DNA from: Lachnospiraceae bacterium
GTDB lineage: Bacteria; Bacillota; Clostridia; Lachnospirales; Lachnospiraceae
Length of the DNA stretch: 44,434 bases
Direction of reading: 5' to 3'
Assembly: GCA_016284315.1 (NCBI GenBank)
Contig: JAEEOO010000030.1
Coordinates: 1 to 44,434, forward strand
In this document: positions 13,175 to 24,292 of the stretch, piece by piece
How the letters are laid out: each line of letters begins with the position of its first letter
Position numbering within the stretch: the stretch's first letter is position 1
The notes under the pieces: model-generated
What the model was told of the DNA's origin: nothing
Databases searched by the model: none
Seen by the model: only the letters and a program-made list of their open reading frames with translations
Made by a program: the position numbers and the translations under genes

Positions 13175-15625
13175 ATGAAAAAGTGGAACAAAGCACTTGC
13201 GGCTGTTCTCGCTCTTACTATGGTAGCCGGCATGCTTGCAGGCTGCTCTAAGAAGACCCCTGATCAGCCCGTTGTCGATGGCGACAACACCGTCGTTTCT
13301 ACAGACGACAACAACACAGTTGCTGCAGCCGGAAAAGATTACACATATCATGCGTATTCAACCGCACTTGCAGATAACTGGAACCCTCACACCTGGGAAA
13401 CCAATGCAGATGACAACATGAGAAGATACTTCAAGACCATGCTTGTTGACACTACTGTTAAGGATTCAGAGGCCGGTGAATATCAGCTCATCTGGGAAGG
13501 CGCTACTTCAATCGAAGACGTAACCGCAGATCACCAGGATGACCTTGACAAGTACGGATGTAACCTTCCCGAAGGAAAGACTTCCGCAGACATCACCGAG
13601 GGTTACGTTTACGAGATCAAGCTTAATCCTGAGCTTGCTTGGGAAGATGGAACACCCATCAACGCTGATACATTTGTTTACTCAATGCAGCAGCTCCTTA
13701 ACCCCGACATGCTCAACTATCGTGCTAACAACTACTACGACGGCGACTATGCTGTTGCAGGTGGACGCAAGTACTACTATTCAAAGACCGAAGGCTACTA
13801 TGTTCCTTTGACCAATCACTTCGACTCGTTCGCAGCTGCACAGGAAGCAGGCGATGTGTTCGCAAATGCTTGGGATCTTTGGAACGCACAGGGCTACATC
13901 GATGCTGACGGAAACGAAGTTCCTCAGTATGTAAATGTTACCGATGAGACTGTTTACAGCGCGGACGGTGCAGGCGATGACGCTTTCTCCGGTGTTGATC
14001 TTGCTGCATACGGCGATGCATATCCTGAGTACTTTTACGTATGGGAAAACAACGAAGATCTTGGCGCAAGCTTCGATGTTGTAGGTTTCTACAAGGTTGA
14101 TGATTATACTCTTCGTTATGTTGGACAGGAAGCTACCGATTACAACCTTATGGTTATCGGACATCTTGGAGACTTGGACGTTGTTTATGAGCCCCTTTAC
14201 GAGTCACTTAAGGACACCACCGGTGATCTTGTGACTACCAGCTACGGTACTTCAAAAGAGACTACCGTATCTTACGGTGTATGGAAGCTTGATTCCTTCC
14301 AGGATGACAAGCAGGTTGTTCTTACCCGTAACGAGAACTGGTTCGGTTGGGAGCAGGATGAGAACGGAAACCTCGTTTCTTACACCTTAGTTCCCATCGA
14401 TGGCGAAATCAGACAGCAGTATCAGACCACCAAGATCGTTATCGACGTTATGACCGATGACGCTGCTAAGCAGGCATTCCTCAAGGGCGAACTTGATACA
14501 TGGGTACCTTCAAGCGCAGACCTTACTACTTATGGTCTTTCTGATAAGATGTACAAGGCTCCCGAGACCTACACTGAGAGACTCTTCTTCAACTGTGGTC
14601 TTGATAACCTTAAGGAGATGGATGCTTCAAAGGGCAACACCAACTCTGTAGTACTTAGCAATGAAAACTTCCGTAAGGCATTCTCACTCTGCATCGATCG
14701 TTCAGAGTGGGTTGGAAAGACAGCAGGATTCATTCCCGCATACGCTATCCTTAACAGCCTTTACTACTATGATTTCTACAACGATCCTACTTCAAAGTAC
14801 AGAGCTACCGACGAAGCTATGCAGGCTATCTGCAATGTTTACGGCGTAGAGTACGGCGAGGGCAAGGCATATGCAACTCTTGAGGATGCATACAACTCAA
14901 TCAACGGATACAACCTTACCGAAGCTAAGGAACTTATGGCAACTGCTTGTCAGGAACTTGTTGATGCAGGCCTTTACACCGCAGGACAGGATATCCACGT
15001 TCGTGTTGCTTGGATGAAGGGACCCCTTGATTCTGATGCAGAAGCTCAGGTATCTCTCCTTCAGGACTACTTAAATGCAGCTATGGACGGATCCGGATTT
15101 GGTAAGATCACTCTTGAAGCACTCGGAAGCATAACCGATCGTTACGGTGACACTGCTAAGGGTGAGTACGCAATCGGATACGGCGCATGGGGTGGTGCAG
15201 CATTCTATCCCTTCACCATCTTCCAGGTATACTGCGATCCCGACTATGTTTCAATCCACGAGGCAGGATGCTGGGATCCTAAGACCGAGACTCTTACCCT
15301 TAATGTTAAGGGTGAAGATGTAACCATGACTTGGCAGGAGTGGTCAAGCTGCATGGCCGGTACCGGTAAGTTCGCAGCTGAAGACTTCAAGACTAAGCTT
15401 GGAATCCTTGCAGGAATCGAAGAAAATTACATCGAGAAATATTACTGCATCCCTCTTGCAAGCATGAGTACCTGTGAGATGATCTCTTACAAGGTTAACT
15501 ATGCAGCAGAGGAGTACAACGTAATGTATGGCTTTGGTGGCATTCGTCTTATGACTTACAACTATGACGATGCTGAGTGGGCTGAGTTCGTTGCTTCTCA
15601 GAGCGGTGCATTAAGCTACGAATAA
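13175..15625 (+). CDS. oppA: Oligopeptide-binding lipoprotein OppA (enlarged)
   Basis: This is an 816-residue family 5 solute-binding lipoprotein. It has signal peptide MKKWNKALAAVLALTMVAGM, lipobox LAGC (Cys24) and an Asp/Thr-rich linker. Family features include KLNPELAWEDGTPINADTFV near residue 150-168 and FRKAFSLCIDRSEW in the second half. Usual members are about 550 residues. Here an extra acidic and Tyr-rich segment of about 80 residues lies between residues 175 and 305, and the C-terminal half is also longer. AGGAGG precedes the ATG. Highly restricted codon use suggests strong expression. It would capture peptides outside the membrane for the OppBCDF complex encoded next. Peptide rather than nickel or sugar specificity rests on the company of OppD/OppF-type ATPases. 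Confidence 0.9.
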   Translation: MKKWNKALAAVLALTMVAGMLAGCSKKTPDQPVVDGDNTVVSTDDNNTVAAAGKDYTYHAYSTALADNWNPHTWETNADDNMRRYFKTMLVDTTVKDSEAGEYQLIWEGATSIEDVTADHQDDLDKYGCNLPEGKTSADITEGYVYEIKLNPELAWEDGTPINADTFVYSMQQLLNPDMLNYRANNYYDGDYAVAGGRKYYYSKTEGYYVPLTNHFDSFAAAQEAGDVFANAWDLWNAQGYIDADGNEVPQYVNVTDETVYSADGAGDDAFSGVDLAAYGDAYPEYFYVWENNEDLGASFDVVGFYKVDDYTLRYVGQEATDYNLMVIGHLGDLDVVYEPLYESLKDTTGDLVTTSYGTSKETTVSYGVWKLDSFQDDKQVVLTRNENWFGWEQDENGNLVSYTLVPIDGEIRQQYQTTKIVIDVMTDDAAKQAFLKGELDTWVPSSADLTTYGLSDKMYKAPETYTERLFFNCGLDNLKEMDASKGNTNSVVLSNENFRKAFSLCIDRSEWVGKTAGFIPAYAILNSLYYYDFYNDPTSKYRATDEAMQAICNVYGVEYGEGKAYATLEDAYNSINGYNLTEAKELMATACQELVDAGLYTAGQDIHVRVAWMKGPLDSDAEAQVSLLQDYLNAAMDGSGFGKITLEALGSITDRYGDTAKGEYAIGYGAWGGAAFYPFTIFQVYCDPDYVSIHEAGCWDPKTETLTLNVKGEDVTMTWQEWSSCMAGTGKFAAEDFKTKLGILAGIEENYIEKYYCIPLASMSTCEMISYKVNYAAEEYNVMYGFGGIRLMTYNYDDAEWAEFVASQSGALSYE

Positions 15626-15824: not shown

Positions 15825-16790
15825 ATGCGAATGTTCAAATACGTGCTAAAGCGTATTGCGCTAATGTTTTTTGTTCTTTTTGTTATCACTACGATAGCAT
15901 TTGTCCTCATCAGGATACTTCCCAGAGACTTGCCTCTTGAGGCTTCTCAGAAGGAGGCAATCCTTGCAAGATGGGAAGCACTAGGTTATAACGAGCCCCT
16001 TCTTATCCAATATGGAATTTATTGGAAAAATATCATAACCAAATGGGACTTTGGTACCAGCTGGCAGATTGCTTATCGTAAACCCGCATGGGACCTTCTT
16101 GTTAGCCGTCTGACTCCCACTGTACTCATCAACGTATACTCACTTTTATTCTCAATCCCTCTTGGACTTGCTCTCGGCGTATTCGCCGCGATCAAGAAGA
16201 ATAAGTGGCAGGATAACGTTATCAGTACATTGGTTATCGTGTTCATATCCGTACCAAGCTATGTATACGCATTCCTCGTTCAGTATATTTTCTTCTTCAA
16301 ACTTGGATGGCTTCCTCTTCAGCTCTATTCACTTGCTGATGCGGGAAATACATACTTTAGCTGGAAGATGTTCCATTCAATGATCGGCCCCGTTCTTGCC
16401 ATGAGTTTTGGTGAGATCGCCGGACTTTGCCGTTTCTCAAGAGCGGAGCTTACAGAGACCCTTACATCCGATTACATGCTTCTTGCCAGAACCAAAGGCC
16501 TTACCAGAGCCCAGGCAACTGCAAGACATGCATTCAAGAATGCTATGGTGCCCGTACTTCCTTCCATTATCGGTAGCTTTGTATCCATCATGGGTGGATC
16601 AATGATCATCGAGAAGATCTTCTCCGTTCCCGGTGTTGGTCCTCTTTACCTCACAGCTATCGGAACCCTTGACTATGATGTGTTCATGCTTGACAGCTTG
16701 TTCTACACATTCATTGGTCTTATTGGTGGTATCATCATCGACTTGAGTTATGGATTTATCGATCCTAGAATCAGAATGGGAGAGAAATAA
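15825..16790 (+). CDS. oppB: Oligopeptide ABC transporter permease OppB
   Basis: This 321-residue permease begins MRMFKYVLKRIALMFFVLFV, the typical OppB/DppB start. It has six predicted helices. The coupling loop near residue 215 (LTSDYMLLARTKGLTRAQAT) is followed by the conserved PSIIGSFVSIMGGSMIIEKI and FSVPGVGPLY. The length is normal, unlike its partners. The ATG at 15825 is used because GGAGG lies ten bases upstream; the in-frame TTG at 15801 has none. The next gene starts one base after its stop codon. It forms the channel with OppC. Confidence 0.92.
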   Translation: MRMFKYVLKRIALMFFVLFVITTIAFVLIRILPRDLPLEASQKEAILARWEALGYNEPLLIQYGIYWKNIITKWDFGTSWQIAYRKPAWDLLVSRLTPTVLINVYSLLFSIPLGLALGVFAAIKKNKWQDNVISTLVIVFISVPSYVYAFLVQYIFFFKLGWLPLQLYSLADAGNTYFSWKMFHSMIGPVLAMSFGEIAGLCRFSRAELTETLTSDYMLLARTKGLTRAQATARHAFKNAMVPVLPSIIGSFVSIMGGSMIIEKIFSVPGVGPLYLTAIGTLDYDVFMLDSLFYTFIGLIGGIIIDLSYGFIDPRIRMGEK

Positions 16791-16791
16791 A

Positions 16792-18372
16792 ATGAGCACC
16801 GTAAATGTTAATGAAATCAAGATAGATCCGAGCAAGTTCGCCTTCGTTAACGAAGCGGATAAGCTCCATGATAAAAAATTTGAAGATAAACCCATCGGAT
16901 ACTTTAAAGATGCCTGGATCCGTTTCCGTAAGAGCAGAGCATCCGTAGTAGCTTTGATCATCATTTTAAGCATCGTAGCTTTTGCTTTTGTTGCGCCTTT
17001 GTGCGTAAGAAGCCATGATCAGGCATTCATGGTTCCTACATATGCTAAAAACTCTCCTCGTATTGTAGCTCTTAAAAATCTTGGCCTAAAGACCGGATTT
17101 ACAAGCCGTGACTTCTCCGACAGAAGCCTTATGAAGGCTCTTGCGGTAGGAGTCGGAGCAGAAGAGTACAAAGGGCAGGATGTAAGCTTTGCTGACGCTA
17201 TGGACAGCGAATACATGCCCATCCTTGAGATCACTAATGTAACTACTTCAATCGGAGCAGATAAAAAGGAGACTCATAGCTACACCGCAGATATCGAGAC
17301 ATATCTTGAGGTTGGTTTCCTTTACAAGAGCATTGAACAGCATGAACTTGAGAGCATCCTTGCCTGGGAGCAGGAAACCGGTAAGAAGGTTCTTTATCCC
17401 CTTGTTGAAAACAACGAGTACAATATGGATCCCACCGATGCAAACTGCTGGTACAAGTCAGATGCAAAGGGAAATCCTTTAAAGGAAAAGGGTGACAAGG
17501 TTACTAAGATCAAGGAATACGACGAGTCTCTTGTTCTCGCAGACAACTATAAGAGAGATAAAGACGGAAATCCTATTTACTATGAGTACACCGGCGGTGG
17601 TAGTGTAGATACCGCACAGTACAAGATCCGTGTTCTTTATATTAACTACTATGAGTACCTTTACGGCGCAGAGCCCAACTATATATTCGGTACCGACGCT
17701 CAGGGTCGTGACCTTATGCTCCGTCTTGCAGGCGGTATCAGATTGAGCCTCCTGATCGCTGTATGTGTATCCGTTGTTAACTTCATCATCGGTGCATTCT
17801 ACGGATCAACCGAAGGCTACTACGGAGGTGCTGTTGACCTTGTTATGGAGCGTATCTCAGATATCCTCTCCAACATGCCTTTCGTCGTAGTAGCAACCCT
17901 TTTCCAGATCCACCTTGCAAAGAAAGTAGGACCTATTCCTTCGTTGCTCTTTGCTTACTTCACCACCGGATGGATCGGAACCGCATACCGTGTACGTACC
18001 CAGTTCTACAGATTCAAGAACCAGGAATACGTTATGGCGGCAAGAACCCTTGGCGCAAAGGACAAGAGGATCATTTGGAAGCATATCTTCCCCAACTCTC
18101 TTGGCACCATTATCACATCCGCAGCCCTTACCATCCCCGGAGTAATCAACTCTGAGTCAATGCTCAGCTACCTGGGAATCGTAAAGCTTGGATCTTCATC
18201 CGGAACATCACTCGGTACTTTGCTTTCGGATGCAGCCGCAATTTGGACGAACTACCCTCACCTTTTGTTCTTCCCTGCGATCACACTTTCACTTCTGATG
18301 ATCTGTTTCAACCTCTTCGGTAACGGACTCAGAGACGCATTTAACCCTGCACTTCGTGGCGTGGAAGAATAA
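16792..18372 (+). CDS. oppC: Oligopeptide ABC transporter permease OppC with large extracytoplasmic insert
   Basis: This 526-residue protein has the first helix at about residues 51-72 and the conserved FGTDAQGRDLMLRLAGGIRL motif only at 299-318. In ordinary OppC (about 300 residues) these lie roughly 45 residues apart. About 180 extra residues are therefore placed on the outer face of the membrane. They are polar, rich in Asp, Lys, Glu and Tyr, and have no extra helix. The C-terminal channel part, with coupling loop YVMAARTLGAKDKRIIWKHI, is normal. The start at 16792 follows the oppB stop by one base and uses the GGGAGAG inside the oppB end. The insert may contact the enlarged OppA (inference). 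Confidence 0.9.
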   Translation: MSTVNVNEIKIDPSKFAFVNEADKLHDKKFEDKPIGYFKDAWIRFRKSRASVVALIIILSIVAFAFVAPLCVRSHDQAFMVPTYAKNSPRIVALKNLGLKTGFTSRDFSDRSLMKALAVGVGAEEYKGQDVSFADAMDSEYMPILEITNVTTSIGADKKETHSYTADIETYLEVGFLYKSIEQHELESILAWEQETGKKVLYPLVENNEYNMDPTDANCWYKSDAKGNPLKEKGDKVTKIKEYDESLVLADNYKRDKDGNPIYYEYTGGGSVDTAQYKIRVLYINYYEYLYGAEPNYIFGTDAQGRDLMLRLAGGIRLSLLIAVCVSVVNFIIGAFYGSTEGYYGGAVDLVMERISDILSNMPFVVVATLFQIHLAKKVGPIPSLLFAYFTTGWIGTAYRVRTQFYRFKNQEYVMAARTLGAKDKRIIWKHIFPNSLGTIITSAALTIPGVINSESMLSYLGIVKLGSSSGTSLGTLLSDAAAIWTNYPHLLFFPAITLSLLMICFNLFGNGLRDAFNPALRGVEE

Positions 18373-18389: not shown

Positions 18390-20561
18390 ATGGATAAGAT
18401 ATTAGAAGTTAAAAATTTAAAAATATCATTTAGGACCAATTCCGGAATCGTTAGAGCGGTTCGTGATATTTCCTTAGATCTTGAAAAGGGAAAGACACTT
18501 GCCATCGTAGGAGAATCCGGATCAGGCAAGTCCGTTACCAGCAAAGCAATCCTTGGAATCCTTGCAGGTAACTCCATCGTAGAAGGCGGAGAGATCCTCT
18601 ATGATGGTATGGATCTTCTTAAGATCGATGAAGAGCAGATGCACAAGGTTCGTGGAGATAAGATCTCAATGATCTTCCAGGATCCTCTTTCATCCCTTAA
18701 CCCCATCGTTAAGATCGGTAACCAGATCACAGAGGCTACCCTTCTTAAGAACAAGGCTAACAGAAGAGAAGCCCGTAATCAGTTTAACAGTGTACTTGCT
18801 CTCCTTCGTCAGGCCATGGTTGATTCGAAGGCCTGCAGCGAGGAAAAGGCAAAGGAGATGTGTGGAACCTTTGATACTTTCTGTATCAAGGCAAACAAGT
18901 TTGAACATCTCTACAATGTAGATGATGAGGTTTGCGAAGACTGTTCAGCTCACCTTAAGGACCTTCTTTTCAAGGCTGAGAAAAACCAGAAGCAGAACGT
19001 TAAGTATATCGTTGGCGATGTATTAAACAAGACCGGCAATTTTAAGAGTGAATTCTTTGTACATGAGTACAAGGAAAAGCTTGCAAACGCTTCAAAGGAA
19101 GTTAAAGAACTCCTTTCAGATTACAAGCCTACCGCAGACAATAACCGTCTCGGCGAGAAGCTTGAGAATGCTATCAAGGAGTTGGATTCAGTTATTGAGG
19201 CTATGTACAACCAGACAAAGCCCAACTTCTTCAGAATCGGTTTCTATGCTCTTAAGAACCCTAACGAGGATATCTATTCAGAGGATACCGAGGCTCTTAA
19301 CGAGAAGGCTCTTAAGTTCCTTGATGAGAACTTTATGCTTGAGTTCCTTGAGTATACCGAGAAGGCTCTTAAGTACAGCGCAGAAAAGTATCTAGCCAAG
19401 AAGCGCGAGGCAGTTAAAGTTCTTCAGGAGCAGCTTTCATACTTCGATGGAACTATTTCCGAGAAGGAGTCAAAAGCTCGTGCTAAGGTTATGACCGGCG
19501 CTGTTCTCGGTGCCATCGATCCACTTGAGATCAAGAAGGATAACCGTGCATACACTTTTGATACCGGTATCAATGACGCCGTAAACCGCTACTTCAGATT
19601 CGAAAAGCAGAATCCCAAGGAGCAGGCTCGTTTCGATAAACAGACCGCAAAGGTTGAAAAGCTTAAGGCCAGAGGCAAGAAGGTTGACTGGAAAGTTGTT
19701 CCCGCAAACATCGTTGACCTTGACCTTCTTAAGAAGAATATCAGCAACGTGATCAACGGACTTATCGATGATTACAGCGAGTTTGATAAGAATTTTGAAA
19801 AGATCGCTTTCTCAGAGCGTAAGGTTGAGATCGTAGACTTCTTTAAGGATCGTGCATCCAAGGTTGTTTACAAGATCACCAGATCAATGGCAAAGGAAAA
19901 TGCTATCAAGCTCATGGAGGAAGTTGGTATTTCCGAGCCTCGTATGAGATATAATCAGTATCCCTTCGAGTTTTCCGGTGGTATGAGACAGAGAATCGTT
20001 ATCGCTATCGCGCTTACAGCCGATCCCGAGATTCTTATCTGCGATGAGCCCACAACCGCTCTTGACGTTACCATCCAGGCTCAGATCCTTGAGCTCATCA
20101 ACGACCTTAAGAAGAAGAGAAACCTTTCAATCATCTTCATTACACATGACCTCGGCGTTGTAGCAAACATGGCAGACGACATCGCAGTTATGTACGCAGG
20201 TAAGATCGTTGAACAGGGAACTGCAAGTGATGTCTTCTATGATCCCAGACATCCTTACACCTGGGCACTTCTTTCATCAATGCCCGACCTCGATACCAAG
20301 GAGAAACTTGAGTCCATACCCGGAACTCCTCCTAACATGATCTATCCTCCTGTTGGAGATGCATTTGCAGATCGTAACAAATATGCTATGCAGATCGACT
20401 ACGAGATGCAGCCCCCCATGTTTGAGATCTCTGAGACTCACAGAGCAGCTACATGGCTCCTTCATCCCGATGCTCCCAAGCTCGAGACCCCCGCTATCAT
20501 CCGTGATCGTATCGCACGTATGAAAGCAAAGAATAACAACGGAGGTGAGATCAATGGCTGA
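18390..20561 (+). CDS. oppD: Oligopeptide ABC transporter ATPase OppD with ~365-residue insertion
   Basis: This 723-residue ATPase belongs to a family usually about 340 long. Walker A GESGSGKS is at residues 41-48 and the Q-loop Gln at 97. The signature SGGMRQR comes only at 529-535, then Walker B LICDEPTTALD and the switch His in FITHDLG. The insertion sits between Q-loop and signature, about residues 125-495, inside the helical subdomain that faces the permeases. It is mostly charged helix and carries five Cys near its start (149, 158, 165, 182, 185). The C-terminal peptide-transporter tail (PGTPPNMIYPPVGDAFADRN) lacks Cys, as in many Gram-positive OppD. All ATPase motifs are intact, so it should be active. 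The reading frame is continuous, and the gene overlaps oppF by eight bases. Confidence 0.9.
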   Translation: MDKILEVKNLKISFRTNSGIVRAVRDISLDLEKGKTLAIVGESGSGKSVTSKAILGILAGNSIVEGGEILYDGMDLLKIDEEQMHKVRGDKISMIFQDPLSSLNPIVKIGNQITEATLLKNKANRREARNQFNSVLALLRQAMVDSKACSEEKAKEMCGTFDTFCIKANKFEHLYNVDDEVCEDCSAHLKDLLFKAEKNQKQNVKYIVGDVLNKTGNFKSEFFVHEYKEKLANASKEVKELLSDYKPTADNNRLGEKLENAIKELDSVIEAMYNQTKPNFFRIGFYALKNPNEDIYSEDTEALNEKALKFLDENFMLEFLEYTEKALKYSAEKYLAKKREAVKVLQEQLSYFDGTISEKESKARAKVMTGAVLGAIDPLEIKKDNRAYTFDTGINDAVNRYFRFEKQNPKEQARFDKQTAKVEKLKARGKKVDWKVVPANIVDLDLLKKNISNVINGLIDDYSEFDKNFEKIAFSERKVEIVDFFKDRASKVVYKITRSMAKENAIKLMEEVGISEPRMRYNQYPFEFSGGMRQRIVIAIALTADPEILICDEPTTALDVTIQAQILELINDLKKKRNLSIIFITHDLGVVANMADDIAVMYAGKIVEQGTASDVFYDPRHPYTWALLSSMPDLDTKEKLESIPGTPPNMIYPPVGDAFADRNKYAMQIDYEMQPPMFEISETHRAATWLLHPDAPKLETPAIIRDRIARMKAKNNNGGEING

Positions 20562-21609
20562 AGTTAAGCATGGCGAGGAACTCCTCAGAGTAGAACATCT
20601 CTGCCAGTATTTCGGAAGAACAAAGGCAGTTGATGATGTAAGCTTCTCCATATACAAAGGAGAGGTATTCGGACTTGTAGGTGAGTCCGGATGCGGAAAG
20701 ACCACTACCGGTCGTTCCATCATTAAGATCTATGACATCACATCAGGTAACATTTTCCTTGAGGGAAAGCGCGTCGCTGCCGGTGTTATGTCTTATAAAA
20801 AAGCAATCGCTGAGGCAAAGCAGAAGTTAAAGACTGCTGCAACTGCCGAAGAGAAGGCAGCTCTTAAGAAAGAGATCGCAGATAATCGCGAAGAGATCAA
20901 GAAAGCTCTTCACGTTCAGAAGAAAGAAAAGGTTGTTGATAAGGTTCAGATGATCTTCCAGGATCCCATCGCTTCCCTTGACCCCCGTATGACTGTACGA
21001 GAGATCATTGCAGAAGGTCTTATCATTAACGGTGAAAAAGATAAAAAGGTTATCGACGAGAAAGTATTCGAAGCTCTTGAGAAGGTAGGACTTGTACGTG
21101 AGCACGCAGGACGTTATCCTCACGAGTTCTCCGGCGGACAGAGACAGAGAATCGGTATCGCAAGAAGCGTTATCATGCATCCTGAGATGATCATTGCCGA
21201 CGAGCCCGTATCAGCTCTCGACGTTTCAATCCAGGCACAGGTTATCAACCTTCTTAATGACCTTAGAAAAGAATACGGAATCACCATCATGTTCATTGCA
21301 CATGACCTTTCCGTAGTTAAGTATTTCTCAGATCGTATCGGCGTTATGTATTACGGAAAGCTTGTAGAGCTTGCATCATCAGATGAACTTTTCGCTCATC
21401 CCCTGCATCCCTACACAAAGTCACTTCTTTCCGCAATTCCTCTTCCCGATCCCGATACCGAGAAGAATCGTAAGCGTATCGTATATGACAAGCTGAAGGA
21501 TCACGATTACAGCAAGCAGGGACCTACCATGCGCGAGATCGTTCCCGGCCACTTCGTATACTGTAACGACGAAGAAGCAGAGCGTTACAAGAAGATCTGT
21601 GCTGAATAA
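20554..21609 (+). CDS. oppF: Oligopeptide ABC transporter ATPase OppF with charged helical insert
   Basis: This 352-residue ATPase has Walker A GESGCGKT at residues 43-50, a Q-loop at Gln136 (MIFQDPIASLDPRMT), signature SGGQRQR, Walker B IIADEPVSALD and switch His in FIAHDLS. Between Walker A and the Q-loop, about residues 74-128, lies an extra Ala/Lys/Glu-rich segment (AIAEAKQKLKTAATAEEKAA) predicted to form a helical hairpin. The short tail ending EIVPGHFVYC fits the Gram-positive OppF group. The ATG at 20554 overlaps the end of oppD and follows GGAGG. It pairs with OppD as the second motor subunit of the peptide importer. Confidence 0.92.
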   Translation: MAEVKHGEELLRVEHLCQYFGRTKAVDDVSFSIYKGEVFGLVGESGCGKTTTGRSIIKIYDITSGNIFLEGKRVAAGVMSYKKAIAEAKQKLKTAATAEEKAALKKEIADNREEIKKALHVQKKEKVVDKVQMIFQDPIASLDPRMTVREIIAEGLIINGEKDKKVIDEKVFEALEKVGLVREHAGRYPHEFSGGQRQRIGIARSVIMHPEMIIADEPVSALDVSIQAQVINLLNDLRKEYGITIMFIAHDLSVVKYFSDRIGVMYYGKLVELASSDELFAHPLHPYTKSLLSAIPLPDPDTEKNRKRIVYDKLKDHDYSKQGPTMREIVPGHFVYCNDEEAERYKKICAE

Positions 21610-21657: not shown

Positions 21658-22086
21658 GTGAAGTCACCATTGTCACCACTTATCAGAAACCTTATAAGCT
21701 ACGGTGTTACCATCCTCGTAGGACTTGGAATGGCATACCTTTATATAAGGAATCGTGAATTCCCTGTGGAATCCGCAGTGGAGAATTATCGTATTCTTGC
21801 AGATGCCTTCACTGTTCCCGCTCTGCTGTTTCTTATGTTCGGAGCTCTTTTATGGGCTGCCGGCAAGGGAGCTGTAGATGGAGTTTCCTATGCATTCACC
21901 TGGGCCATCAAGTCCCTGCTCCCCGGAGCAAGGCTTGCTTCAAAGGATCTCAGCTATGCTGCTTATGTAGAGGAAAAGCGGGAGAAGAGGAAGAAATCAA
22001 GAGGTTTCTCATTCCTGTTCTTTTGCGGCCTGGGCTTTATGGCGGTTACAGCAGTATTCATATTCCTGTTTTACAAGAACCGCTGA
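21658..22086 (+). CDS. DUF3899-like membrane protein
   Basis: This 142-residue protein has three predicted helices: residues 8-26 (LISYGVTILVGLGMAYLYIR), about 43-62, and 115-137. The middle part (YRILADAFTVPALLFLMFGA, then GAVDGVSYAFTW and a basic YVEEKREKRKKSRG stretch) resembles the DUF3899 family, whose function is unknown. The start codon is GTG with AAAGGG upstream. It lies 48 bases after oppF and may be the last gene of the opp transcript, followed by the hairpin at 22131-22172. The family call is from memory of its motifs and is moderate in certainty. Confidence 0.7.
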   Translation: MKSPLSPLIRNLISYGVTILVGLGMAYLYIRNREFPVESAVENYRILADAFTVPALLFLMFGALLWAAGKGAVDGVSYAFTWAIKSLLPGARLASKDLSYAAYVEEKREKRKKSRGFSFLFFCGLGFMAVTAVFIFLFYKNR

Positions 22087-22225: not shown

Positions 22226-24292
22226 ATGAATTTAAAAACAGCTTATGAACCTTACTTTAAGATTGGTGTCGCTCTTTCAAACAAAAACCTTAGAACACCT
22301 GCACATATGCAGCTTGTGAAGGAACAGTTCAGCAGCTTTACCGCCGAGAACGACATGAAGCCCATGTTCTATCTCGACAGAGCGGAGAACAAAAAAGATC
22401 CGAAGAAATATGCCCTTGCGCCTGCGTTAACCTTTGAGCATGCAAAACCCTATCTTGATTTTGCAAAGGCTAACGGTATTCCCATGCGCGGACATACTCT
22501 TCTTTGGCATAACCAGACTCCCAAGTGGTTCTTCCATGAGGACTATAACGAGATGAAGAAGCTTGCAGGCCGTGAGACCATTCTTGCGAGACTTGAAAAC
22601 TATATCAAGGGAGTTCTTACATTCGCTCAGACAGAATATCCCGGTGTCATCTATGCCTGGGACGTTGTAAATGAGATCGTTGACGAGGGAGATTTCAGAA
22701 AATCAATCTGGCTTAAAACCGTTGGTGAGGATTTCTTCATCAAGGCTTTTGAGTTCGCAAGAAAGTATGCTGCTCCCGACGTTTCGCTTTTCTATAATGA
22801 TTATGAAACGGCGGAGATTTGGAAGAGAGATTTTATCATCGAGAAGGTCCTTAAGCCTCTTATGGAAAAGAAGCTTGTTGATGGTATGGGAATGCAGTCC
22901 CATTTGTTAATGGATCATCCCGACCTTGAGCAGTATAAAACAGCAGTTGAAATGTACGGCGCTCTTGGGCTTCAGGTTCAGATAACAGAACTTGATATGC
23001 ACAATAACGACAATTCCGAAAAATTCCAGCATGAGCTTGCTGAGAGATACAAGGAATTCTTCAAGATCTATCTTGATGCAAAAAAATCGGGAAAAGCAAA
23101 TATAACCGCTGTCACTTTCTGGAATCTTAGAGACGGAGACAGCTGGCTCAGCGGATTCAGAAGAGAGACCAGTTATCCTCTTTTGTTCACTGATAAATGC
23201 GAAGCCAAGGAAAGTTATTATGCTGTTCTTTCGGCCGCTGTATCTGAAGATAAGATTGATAAGTATGAACTTAAATGCAACGAAGAAGATTTCGTGACTG
23301 CTCCCGGACCTAAGAGGGATAAGCGAATTTTTAGAGAGCCCATCTGGGAAGAGGGCGAATATGATTATGCAGCTGCCTACGGATTTACACCAAATATTTT
23401 CGCATATCTTCACGATGACGATGAAAAGAGAGATTGCATGATCGTTGTACCCGGTGGCGGATATTGCATGTGCTGCGGTCATGAGGGCGAGCTTGTGGCA
23501 GATGAATTTTTTAAGAGGGGCATGAATGTATTGGTGCTTACCTACACTACGGATATCACCATGTCAATTCCTCTTAAGAAACAGCCCCTTGAAGATATAT
23601 CAAGAGCAGTTAGATTTGTCAGAAAGAACGCTTCGAAGTATAATGTTGAGGGAAAAAGAATCGTCATTACCGGATTCTCTGCGGGGGCACATGTTTGCGG
23701 AAGCCTTGCGGTCCATTTCGAAGATGTAAAAGATGTTAACCCCGAGTATACCAAGTTCTCCAACAGACCTGACGGAGTTATACTTTCATATCCTGTTATA
23801 ACCACCGGTGAGTACACTCACAAGGATTCTGTAAGAGCCCTTCTTGGTAATGAGCCTACTGCGGAAGAACTTGAATATTTCTCACTTGAAAAACAGGTTA
23901 AGGAGAATACTCCTCCCTGCTTTATCTGGCAGACTGAAGAGGATGGACTTGTTCCTGTTGAGAACAGCTACCTTTTTGCAACTGCTCTTAGAGAGAAGAA
24001 GGTTCCTTTTGCACATTATGTTTTCCCCAAGGGATTCCATGGCCTTACCGTTGCAAACGATGATTATTTTGCAGGATGGTCAGGTGGAGACTACTCCATG
24101 GAGCAGACCATGCGCGCCGTGTTCAATGTAAGAGAGGGCAAGGGCGTTAACGTTTCCGAGCAGAGAAAGGCAGAGCTCATTGAGCAGTTCTTCGGAGGAA
24201 ATGAAATGCCTCCCGTAGAGATCGACGAGAGCCTTAAAGAGGATGTAGGCCGCTGGCCCGGTATGGCGGAGGCCTGGATTAAAAGACTGTAA
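22226..24292 (+). CDS. Cytoplasmic GH10 xylanase fused to an acetyl-xylan-type esterase
   Basis: This 688-residue bifunctional enzyme has two catalytic domains. Residues 1-345 form a GH10 domain. Its acid/base is Glu150 in WDVVNE and its nucleophile Glu255 in ITELD; TAENDMKP and HTLLWHNQTP are also typical. Residues 365-640 form an alpha/beta hydrolase with oxyanion motif PGGGY, nucleophile Ser485 in GFSAG, probable Asp573 and His605 in KGFHG. It resembles acetyl-xylan esterases of the BD-FAE type. No signal peptide is present, so it should act on imported xylo-oligosaccharides, cutting the backbone and removing acetyl groups. GGGGGATAG precedes the ATG. Esterase specificity is inferred; the GH10 call is firm. 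Confidence 0.93.
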   Translation: MNLKTAYEPYFKIGVALSNKNLRTPAHMQLVKEQFSSFTAENDMKPMFYLDRAENKKDPKKYALAPALTFEHAKPYLDFAKANGIPMRGHTLLWHNQTPKWFFHEDYNEMKKLAGRETILARLENYIKGVLTFAQTEYPGVIYAWDVVNEIVDEGDFRKSIWLKTVGEDFFIKAFEFARKYAAPDVSLFYNDYETAEIWKRDFIIEKVLKPLMEKKLVDGMGMQSHLLMDHPDLEQYKTAVEMYGALGLQVQITELDMHNNDNSEKFQHELAERYKEFFKIYLDAKKSGKANITAVTFWNLRDGDSWLSGFRRETSYPLLFTDKCEAKESYYAVLSAAVSEDKIDKYELKCNEEDFVTAPGPKRDKRIFREPIWEEGEYDYAAAYGFTPNIFAYLHDDDEKRDCMIVVPGGGYCMCCGHEGELVADEFFKRGMNVLVLTYTTDITMSIPLKKQPLEDISRAVRFVRKNASKYNVEGKRIVITGFSAGAHVCGSLAVHFEDVKDVNPEYTKFSNRPDGVILSYPVITTGEYTHKDSVRALLGNEPTAEELEYFSLEKQVKENTPPCFIWQTEEDGLVPVENSYLFATALREKKVPFAHYVFPKGFHGLTVANDDYFAGWSGGDYSMEQTMRAVFNVREGKGVNVSEQRKAELIEQFFGGNEMPPVEIDESLKEDVGRWPGMAEAWIKRL

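Follow-up and report, generated by a model that had tools for sequence, protein, structure and literature searches.

The stretch of DNA analyzed here (the window; 44,434 nucleotides, positions 1 to 44,434 of the forward strand of contig JAEEOO010000030.1, Lachnospiraceae bacterium, GCA_016284315.1) encodes an OppD ATPase that carries a true conserved domain of approximately 373 residues, predicted to be all-helical, between its Q-loop and its ABC signature motif. The existence and site of this domain are well supported. The gene (18390..20561, + strand) begins with ATG and encodes a 723-aa protein with Pfam ABC_tran and oligo_HPY matches, and its C-terminal region corresponds to the oligo_HPY family PF08352 (E 4.1e-14, 53.2 bits against a cut-off of 27.1). 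Walker A, Q-loop, signature, Walker B, and H-loop are all intact, as judged from the sequence and from the alignment columns of 78 homologues. The Walker A motif (GESGSGKS, residues 41–48, 18510..18533), Gln97 of the Q-loop (in FQDP, 18678..18680), and the signature (SGGMRQR, residues 529–535, 19974..19994, or FSGGMRQR when counted from residue 528), all on the + strand, are invariant in 78/78 aligned homologues. The Q-loop and the signature are 432 residues apart, compared with 59–60 residues in all 17 short OppDs examined, and this difference defines the size of the insertion. The distance from Walker A to the Q-loop is 55 residues, as in the other long OppDs and several short ones; the extra residues follow the Q-loop, and none precede it. 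The inserted domain (approximately residues 120–493, 18747..19868, +) is missing from 17/17 short OppDs and is kept in 77 loci. An earlier note on this DNA had described the two motifs as about 430 residues apart, with an open frame and intact motifs, and had put the insertion at about 365 residues; the first description holds, and comparison with the 17 short OppDs adjusts the second figure only slightly.

The insertion is shared by many other genomes. A genome of the same genus encodes the whole OppD, including the insertion, at 89% identity. Full-length or nearly full-length insertion-bearing OppDs were found in 13 of 299 sampled genomes of the family with its own included, a lower bound since three candidates were scored per genome; among these 13, G228 ends at a contig edge, G295 has a shorter insertion, and G218 has one TGA inside the matched stretch, yet its open frame is 715 aa. 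The corresponding counts, with its own genome included each time, were 2/31 in the genus, 11/246 in the order, and 6/391 in the class, and a further sample contained 3/150 true cases after removal of a PepF-like match in one locus (L004, discussed below). The domain is thus present in Lachnospiraceae, the matter on which the earlier note had left a question, but its presence is patchy. A species-wide scan with one genome per species and the insertion as seed returned 163 related stretches, the best 80 of which were kept. In 77 of these best 80, OppD is one open frame of more than 650 aa with more than 380 residues between the Q-loop and the signature; in the remaining three, OppD is split over two frames (L110) or cut by contig ends (L111 and L117). 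The many open frames in other genomes rule out an assembly error, which the earlier note had named as a possible refutation, as well as a pseudogene. By record title, most carriers belong to the Lachnospiraceae, Oscillospiraceae, and other Clostridia, and gut and rumen samples are the source of many; the cultured Acetivibrio ethanolgignens (L088) is one carrier. Two insertion-bearing OppDs lie on short contigs labelled Treponema (L080, 5.3 kb) and Acholeplasmatales (L091, 8.9 kb), and these labels reflect either cross-phylum transfer or a binning error.

The 78 aligned homologues are 36–82% identical to the window over the insertion, in which eleven positions are invariant (K120, R125, Y175, F280, G284, K338, K383, R414, G429, W434, and P438). 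Two motifs stand out in the column counts. Residues of FFRIGFY (residues 280–286, 19227..19247, +) are kept in 78 (F280), 73 (F281), 72 (I283), 78 (G284), and 73 (Y286, the commonest residue at its position) of the 78 sequences, and those of IDxLEIxKDxxAYTF (residues 376–390, 19515..19559, +) in 77 (I376), 77 (D377), 78 (K383), 77 (D384), and 77 (F390). Between the window and its same-genus relative L006, dN/dS is approximately 0.086 in the insertion, where dS is near saturation, and 0.025 in the core. The insertion is therefore under purifying selection, although its rate of evolution is roughly threefold that of the core. This higher rate, the patchy presence, and the existence of a form with only about 112 extra residues (L021/L118) would all be consistent with a lineage-specific spacer or stiffener that has no specific partner. 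Such a role is nevertheless quite improbable, given that the eleven invariant positions persist among homologues of such modest identity and that the distance from the Q-loop to the signature is held within 404–462 residues across the 91 long rows (which comprise 88 different OppDs, some species being present twice from two genome collections).

An AlphaFold model of residues 108–505 is confident (mean pLDDT 91.4, pTM 0.77) and consists of a string of helices with no strands, as the earlier note, which had described the insertion as mainly helix, anticipated. The full-length OppD model contains nearly the same helices, with ten-residue blocks in the insertion at pLDDT 71–94, but is weak in the C-terminal third (the RecA part), where residues 625–684 and 686–698 are below 50. 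In both models, helix 109–145 runs unbroken from the nucleotide-binding domain (NBD) into the insertion. The earlier note had also considered that the insertion might belong to an already described domain family, and no convincing match of this kind was obtained from Pfam, NCBIfam, or the PDB. Pfam gave only sub-threshold matches to the window insertion (best E 0.0059), and NCBIfam gave none. A family scan of the insertions of all 78 members produced scattered matches, with no family found in more than 2/78 (best E 3e-4). Against PDB sequences, a single-sequence search gave no match and a profile search gave none better than E 0.12. Foldseek searches of the model, the check that the earlier note had proposed, yielded no match at E ≤0.001 in the PDB or BFVD (best E 0.22 and 0.11, respectively), and the query-normalised TM-score was at most 0.24 among the matches listed. 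The predicted fold thus appears to be new as far as these two libraries go. No description of this OppD insertion was found in the open-access literature searched, mostly by title.

The earlier note had further pointed out a patch of five cysteines near the start of the insertion and raised the idea of a regulatory or metal-binding domain. The positions of Cys149, Cys158, Cys165, Cys182, and Cys185 (stretch 18834..18944, +) are as it gave them, and these are the sole cysteines between the Q-loop and the signature of the window OppD. Five cysteines within 37 residues would indeed be suggestive of a metal or Fe-S site. Among the 78 homologues (window included), however, cysteine occurs at these positions in 1, 18, 30, 8, and 5 sequences, respectively. 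All five occur together in 1/78, which is the window itself, at least four of the five occur in 5/78, and 3/78 have no cysteine in the insertion at all. Even within the genus, L006 lacks Cys149; L009 has none of the five. In the AlphaFold models, Cys158, Cys165, Cys182, and Cys185 are spread along one helix (residues 151–197). At 1.5 Å per residue, Cys165 and Cys182 would be approximately 25 Å apart along this helix, which would not allow them to share an ion within one chain. The column counts and the predicted helix led us to reject a metal site in the insertion, which we regard as highly improbable; the stretch is not a conserved site.

The insertion begins close to a residue that is likely to contact the membrane channel. 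Glu115 of OppD (18732..18734, +), invariant in 78/78, is taken to align with Glu114 of E. coli DppD; this pairing comes from the end points of a phmmer match to the DppD chain 8z1v_C (4–124 and 3–123). According to PMC12136057, Glu114 of DppD forms a salt bridge with Lys243 of DppB on the coupling helix. Lys224 of the window OppB aligns with this lysine, and Lys is present at the position in 91/92 aligned OppBs, the remaining one having a gap. The insertion starts approximately 5 residues after Glu115, in keeping with the earlier note's placement of it within the helical subdomain that touches the permeases. Together with the unbroken helix 109–145, this short spacing indicates that the insertion is rooted at the joint between motor and channel, and movement may be passed via the insertion. 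A site beside the coupling-helix contact would also suit a regulatory domain that senses a ligand or partner (peptides, nucleotides, or a cytosolic protein) and inhibits or activates transport, with the OppF insertion (see below) as its counterpart and with no major part in assembly. Among the residues invariant in 78/78, Y175, K338, K383, R414, and W434 could serve such a function, and regulatory domains and proteins on ABC importers are known from MetNI, ModBC, MalFGK, and MlaB, as PMC7367683 describes. No known sensor family or fold convincingly matches the domain, and we consider a sensing role possible but rather unlikely.

Three trees bear on the origin of the insertion. The 91 rows whose OppD has extra residues between the Q-loop and the signature all fall into one clade in the tree of OppD cores (99/98); this tree has 110 rows, with L006 in place of the window and with L021–L037, L038 (identical to L006 in protein), and two truncated rows (L083 and L111) omitted. 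The insertion-bearing systems likewise form one clade in the OppB+OppC tree (SH-aLRT 100), in which L046 and L107 were flagged for long branches, and in the OppF core tree (SH-aLRT 98), both of which are quick trees. The first branches within the insertion clade are L119 and L120 (482- and 497-residue forms) and L118 (462-residue form), and their order is weakly supported (98/75 and 81/72). The insertion of L021/L118 shares homology with the beginning of the long insertion, mainly over the first 48 positions; it scored 24.2 bits (E 9.7e-8) in a small test set, against 3.2 bits for the best shuffle. In the same test, no homology to the long insertion was detected for L022/L023 (= L119/L120). 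These results fit a single origin, after which the insertion grew or, in L118, was partly lost; an alternative reading of L119/L120 is two events at one site. The insertion was most simply gained once. Its patchy presence and the mixture of families among its carriers suggest transfer between lineages.

The second motor subunit, OppF (351 aa, 20554..21609, +), has an insertion of its own. It is rich in charged residues and lies in the stretch from Walker A to the Q-loop (20779..20937, +), which measures 92 residues in the window. This distance is 84–160 residues in 82/82 measured long-form loci (OppF was unmeasured in nine of the 91 long rows) and 91–128 in 3/3 intermediate ones, whereas it is 51 in 17/17 short-form loci and in 2/2 loci of the other OppD insertion class. 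Thus, an OppF insertion of 33–109 extra residues accompanies the OppD insertion in 85/85 measured loci and occurs in 0/19 others, counts that omit rows L021–L037 because these are the same genes as, or overlap, L118–L137. On the trees, this co-occurrence is one shared ancestral event and not many independent ones. At 10.3 bits, the L120 OppF insertion ranked above the shuffles in the small test set, but these did not include shuffled OppF insertions, and we place no weight on this score.

In 50 complete operons, the distances of the OppD and OppF insertions are correlated once the divergence of both cores is taken into account (partial r 0.21), a value reached by 2/2000 permutations. Divergence of the OppD insertion showed no clear link with that of OppB (0.07), OppC (0.04), or OppA (0.11) in the same operons, and these values were reached by 409, 654, and 165 of 2000 permutations, respectively. 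The OppD and OppF insertions therefore co-diverge weakly. In the locus L046, oppD and oppF belong to the main branch, oppB and oppC belong to another, and oppA is divergent. This sequence pattern could be that of a hybrid operon in which oppD and oppF moved as a pair.

The operon has the order oppA-oppB-oppC-oppD-oppF in the window and, as far as each contig reaches, in the relatives. It begins with the binding protein OppA (816 aa, 13175..15625, +, Pfam SBP_bac_5; 602–614 residues in 8 short systems), followed by the permeases OppB (15825..16790, +) and OppC (526 aa, 16792..18372, +). OppC matches Pfam OppC_N and BPD_transp_1, and an extended segment separates its OppC_N region from its transport domain. 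Median lengths in long-form and short-form systems are 845 and 609 for OppA, 527 and 381 for OppC, 724 and 355 for OppD, and 402 and 314 for OppF, whereas those of OppB are nearly equal (321 and 313); these medians are based on complete ORFs only (53–75 long and 8–17 short), a few of which are fragments. The importer thus seems to be enlarged outside the cell as well, in OppA and OppC.

Immediately after oppF lies a gene for a small membrane protein of the DUF3899 family (21658..22086, +, Pfam PF13038). DUF3899 lies near the end of oppF in 69/70 long-form loci with enough sequence and is present on 3/3 intermediate and 6/17 short-form loci. Its presence in intermediate and some short-form loci suggests that it is probably older than the OppD insertion, and it may be a constant sixth part of these importers. 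The name DUF3899 was not found in the open-access literature searched. Just downstream of the operon in the window, 22226–24292 encodes a 688-aa protein with GH10 xylanase and BD-FAE-type esterase domains.

The enlargement of OppA and OppC would fit large or unusual substrates, and the domain, as part of the motor, should face the cytosol. It could accordingly be pictured as a cytosolic scaffold at the pore exit that takes over peptides as they arrive or offers a docking site for a peptidase. We regard this as improbable. Besides DUF3899, no ORF cluster of at least 120 aa recurs downstream in more than 3/75 loci, as assessed on the downstream side with partly annotated clusters. The one hint of a peptidase, the PepF-like match of the insertion in L004 (E 7e-4), failed both the shuffle test, in which the insertion HMM scored no better than shuffles, and the profile comparison, in which the hhalign probability was 0.2%. 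We therefore rejected a PepF origin and attribute this match to chance.

We tentatively favor a different role, to which we give somewhat less than even weight: the insertion would be an accessory domain that links the coupling subdomain of OppD to OppF as an assembly clamp, possibly also as a brake or lever. In this reading, OppD is the motor of an enlarged peptide-type ABC importer, and its added helical domain lies within a loop of the helical subdomain, immediately past the coupling-helix contact. The first helix of the insertion, predicted as a single helix with residues 109–145, would prolong the helix that bears this contact. The domain would reach the OppF insertion and join OppD to its unlike partner motor; besides serving as an assembly clamp, it may act on coupling in the manner of a brake or lever. 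Metal binding would have no part in the mechanism.

Several of the results above point in this direction, namely the confident all-helical prediction with its continuous first helix, the conserved counterparts of the DppD–DppB salt bridge, the constancy of the OppF insertion alongside that of OppD, and the single clades formed by the OppD cores, OppB+OppC, and the OppF cores. The co-divergence of the two insertions, with no clear link to OppA, OppB, or OppC, and the apparent joint movement of oppD and oppF in L046 are also in line with it. As PMC12136057 indicates, assembly of E. coli DppBCDF requires the cysteines of a C-terminal [4Fe-4S] cluster. No such set of four cysteines is present after the signature region of the window OppD, and at least four cysteines in the last 110 residues occur in 0/78 long, 0/3 intermediate, and 0/17 short OppDs. 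The absence of these assembly cysteines is a further point in favor of the assembly clamp. The short OppDs lack them and yet have no insertion, so that loss of the cluster does not call for the insertion as a substitute, which weakens replacement of the Fe-S domain as the sole reason for the insertion.

Other considerations speak against the assembly clamp. The models are of single chains, and the full-length one is poor in its C-terminal RecA part, so that the placement of the domain on the motor and its contact with OppF are putative. The partial correlation is weak, and the co-occurrence of the two insertions is a single ancestral event. The double presence of some species among the loci and the long branches flagged for L046 and L107 in the quick OppB+OppC tree likewise count against it. 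Since these systems also have a larger OppA and OppC, the partner of the domain could be elsewhere. A bolder reading would combine these features into a new importer architecture, in which an OppD domain of new fold, rooted at most two helical turns from the coupling contact, meets the OppF insertion. The two would together form an integral clamp or brake that replaces the C-terminal Fe-S domains as the link between the unlike motors, and the importer would be larger both outside and inside the cell so as to handle unusual peptides. Taken as a whole, this combination is unlikely.

Additional domains of importer motors are usually appended at the C-terminus or are separate proteins. A domain inside the coupling subdomain of OppD, constantly accompanied by an OppF insertion in the measured loci, therefore amounts to a natural experiment on the transmission between motor and channel. 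The insertion also provides a testable mark for a large group of unannotated transporters in gut and rumen Clostridia, and two kinds of OppD insertion can now be told apart by their site.

The second kind is represented by the Mycoplasma-type OppD model NF043079 (MMSYN1_0167, 561 positions), in which OppD is also lengthened by an insertion. NF043079 is the best NCBIfam model for the window OppD, at 456.2 bits, below its cut-off of 740 bits. The extra part of NF043079 precedes the Q-loop, whereas that of the window OppD follows it, and we therefore rejected the possibility that the two insertions are the same. Two genomes of the same genus as the window encode 582-aa OppDs (L007:1471-3216, − strand; L008:1477-3222, − strand) with their extra part between Walker A and the Q-loop. 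These proteins match positions 1–555 of the 561 in NF043079 with scores of 732 and 715 bits, slightly below the cut-off. Their Q-loop is located 288 residues past Walker A, the distance from the Q-loop to the signature is 59 residues, and their OppF is without an insertion. A member of the family (L138) with a 592-aa OppD frame passes the model at 756 bits. The kind of OppD insertion located between Walker A and the Q-loop is thus already covered by NF043079.

Compared with the OppD/DppD importers (E. coli OppBCDF and DppBCDF, and M. tuberculosis OppABCD and DppABCD; PDB 8z21, 8z1v, 8j5q, and 8wd9), the system in the window shares the NBD motifs, the oligo_HPY region, the gene order A-B-C-D-F, and the putative coupling pair Glu115/Lys224. 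In contrast to them, its OppD has the helical insertion of about 373 residues and lacks the four C-terminal cysteines, and its OppF carries an insertion too. As outlined in PMC7367683, MlaFB includes a separate protein, MlaB, which binds the helical subdomain of MlaF, with both motor subunits contributing, and which assembly requires. This arrangement resembles the assembly clamp considered here in the position of a domain on the helical subdomain, the involvement of both motors, and the support of assembly, and the analogy is part of the case for it. The likeness is one of position only. MlaB is a separate STAS-type protein, whereas the OppD domain is in-chain and predicted to be all helix, which does not correspond to a STAS fold. 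PMC7367683 also indicates that the extra C-terminal domains of MetN, ModC, and MalK are thought to alter the association of the NBDs. Those domains are C-terminal and self-associate away from the membrane, whereas the domain of OppD is placed inside the subdomain that faces the channel.
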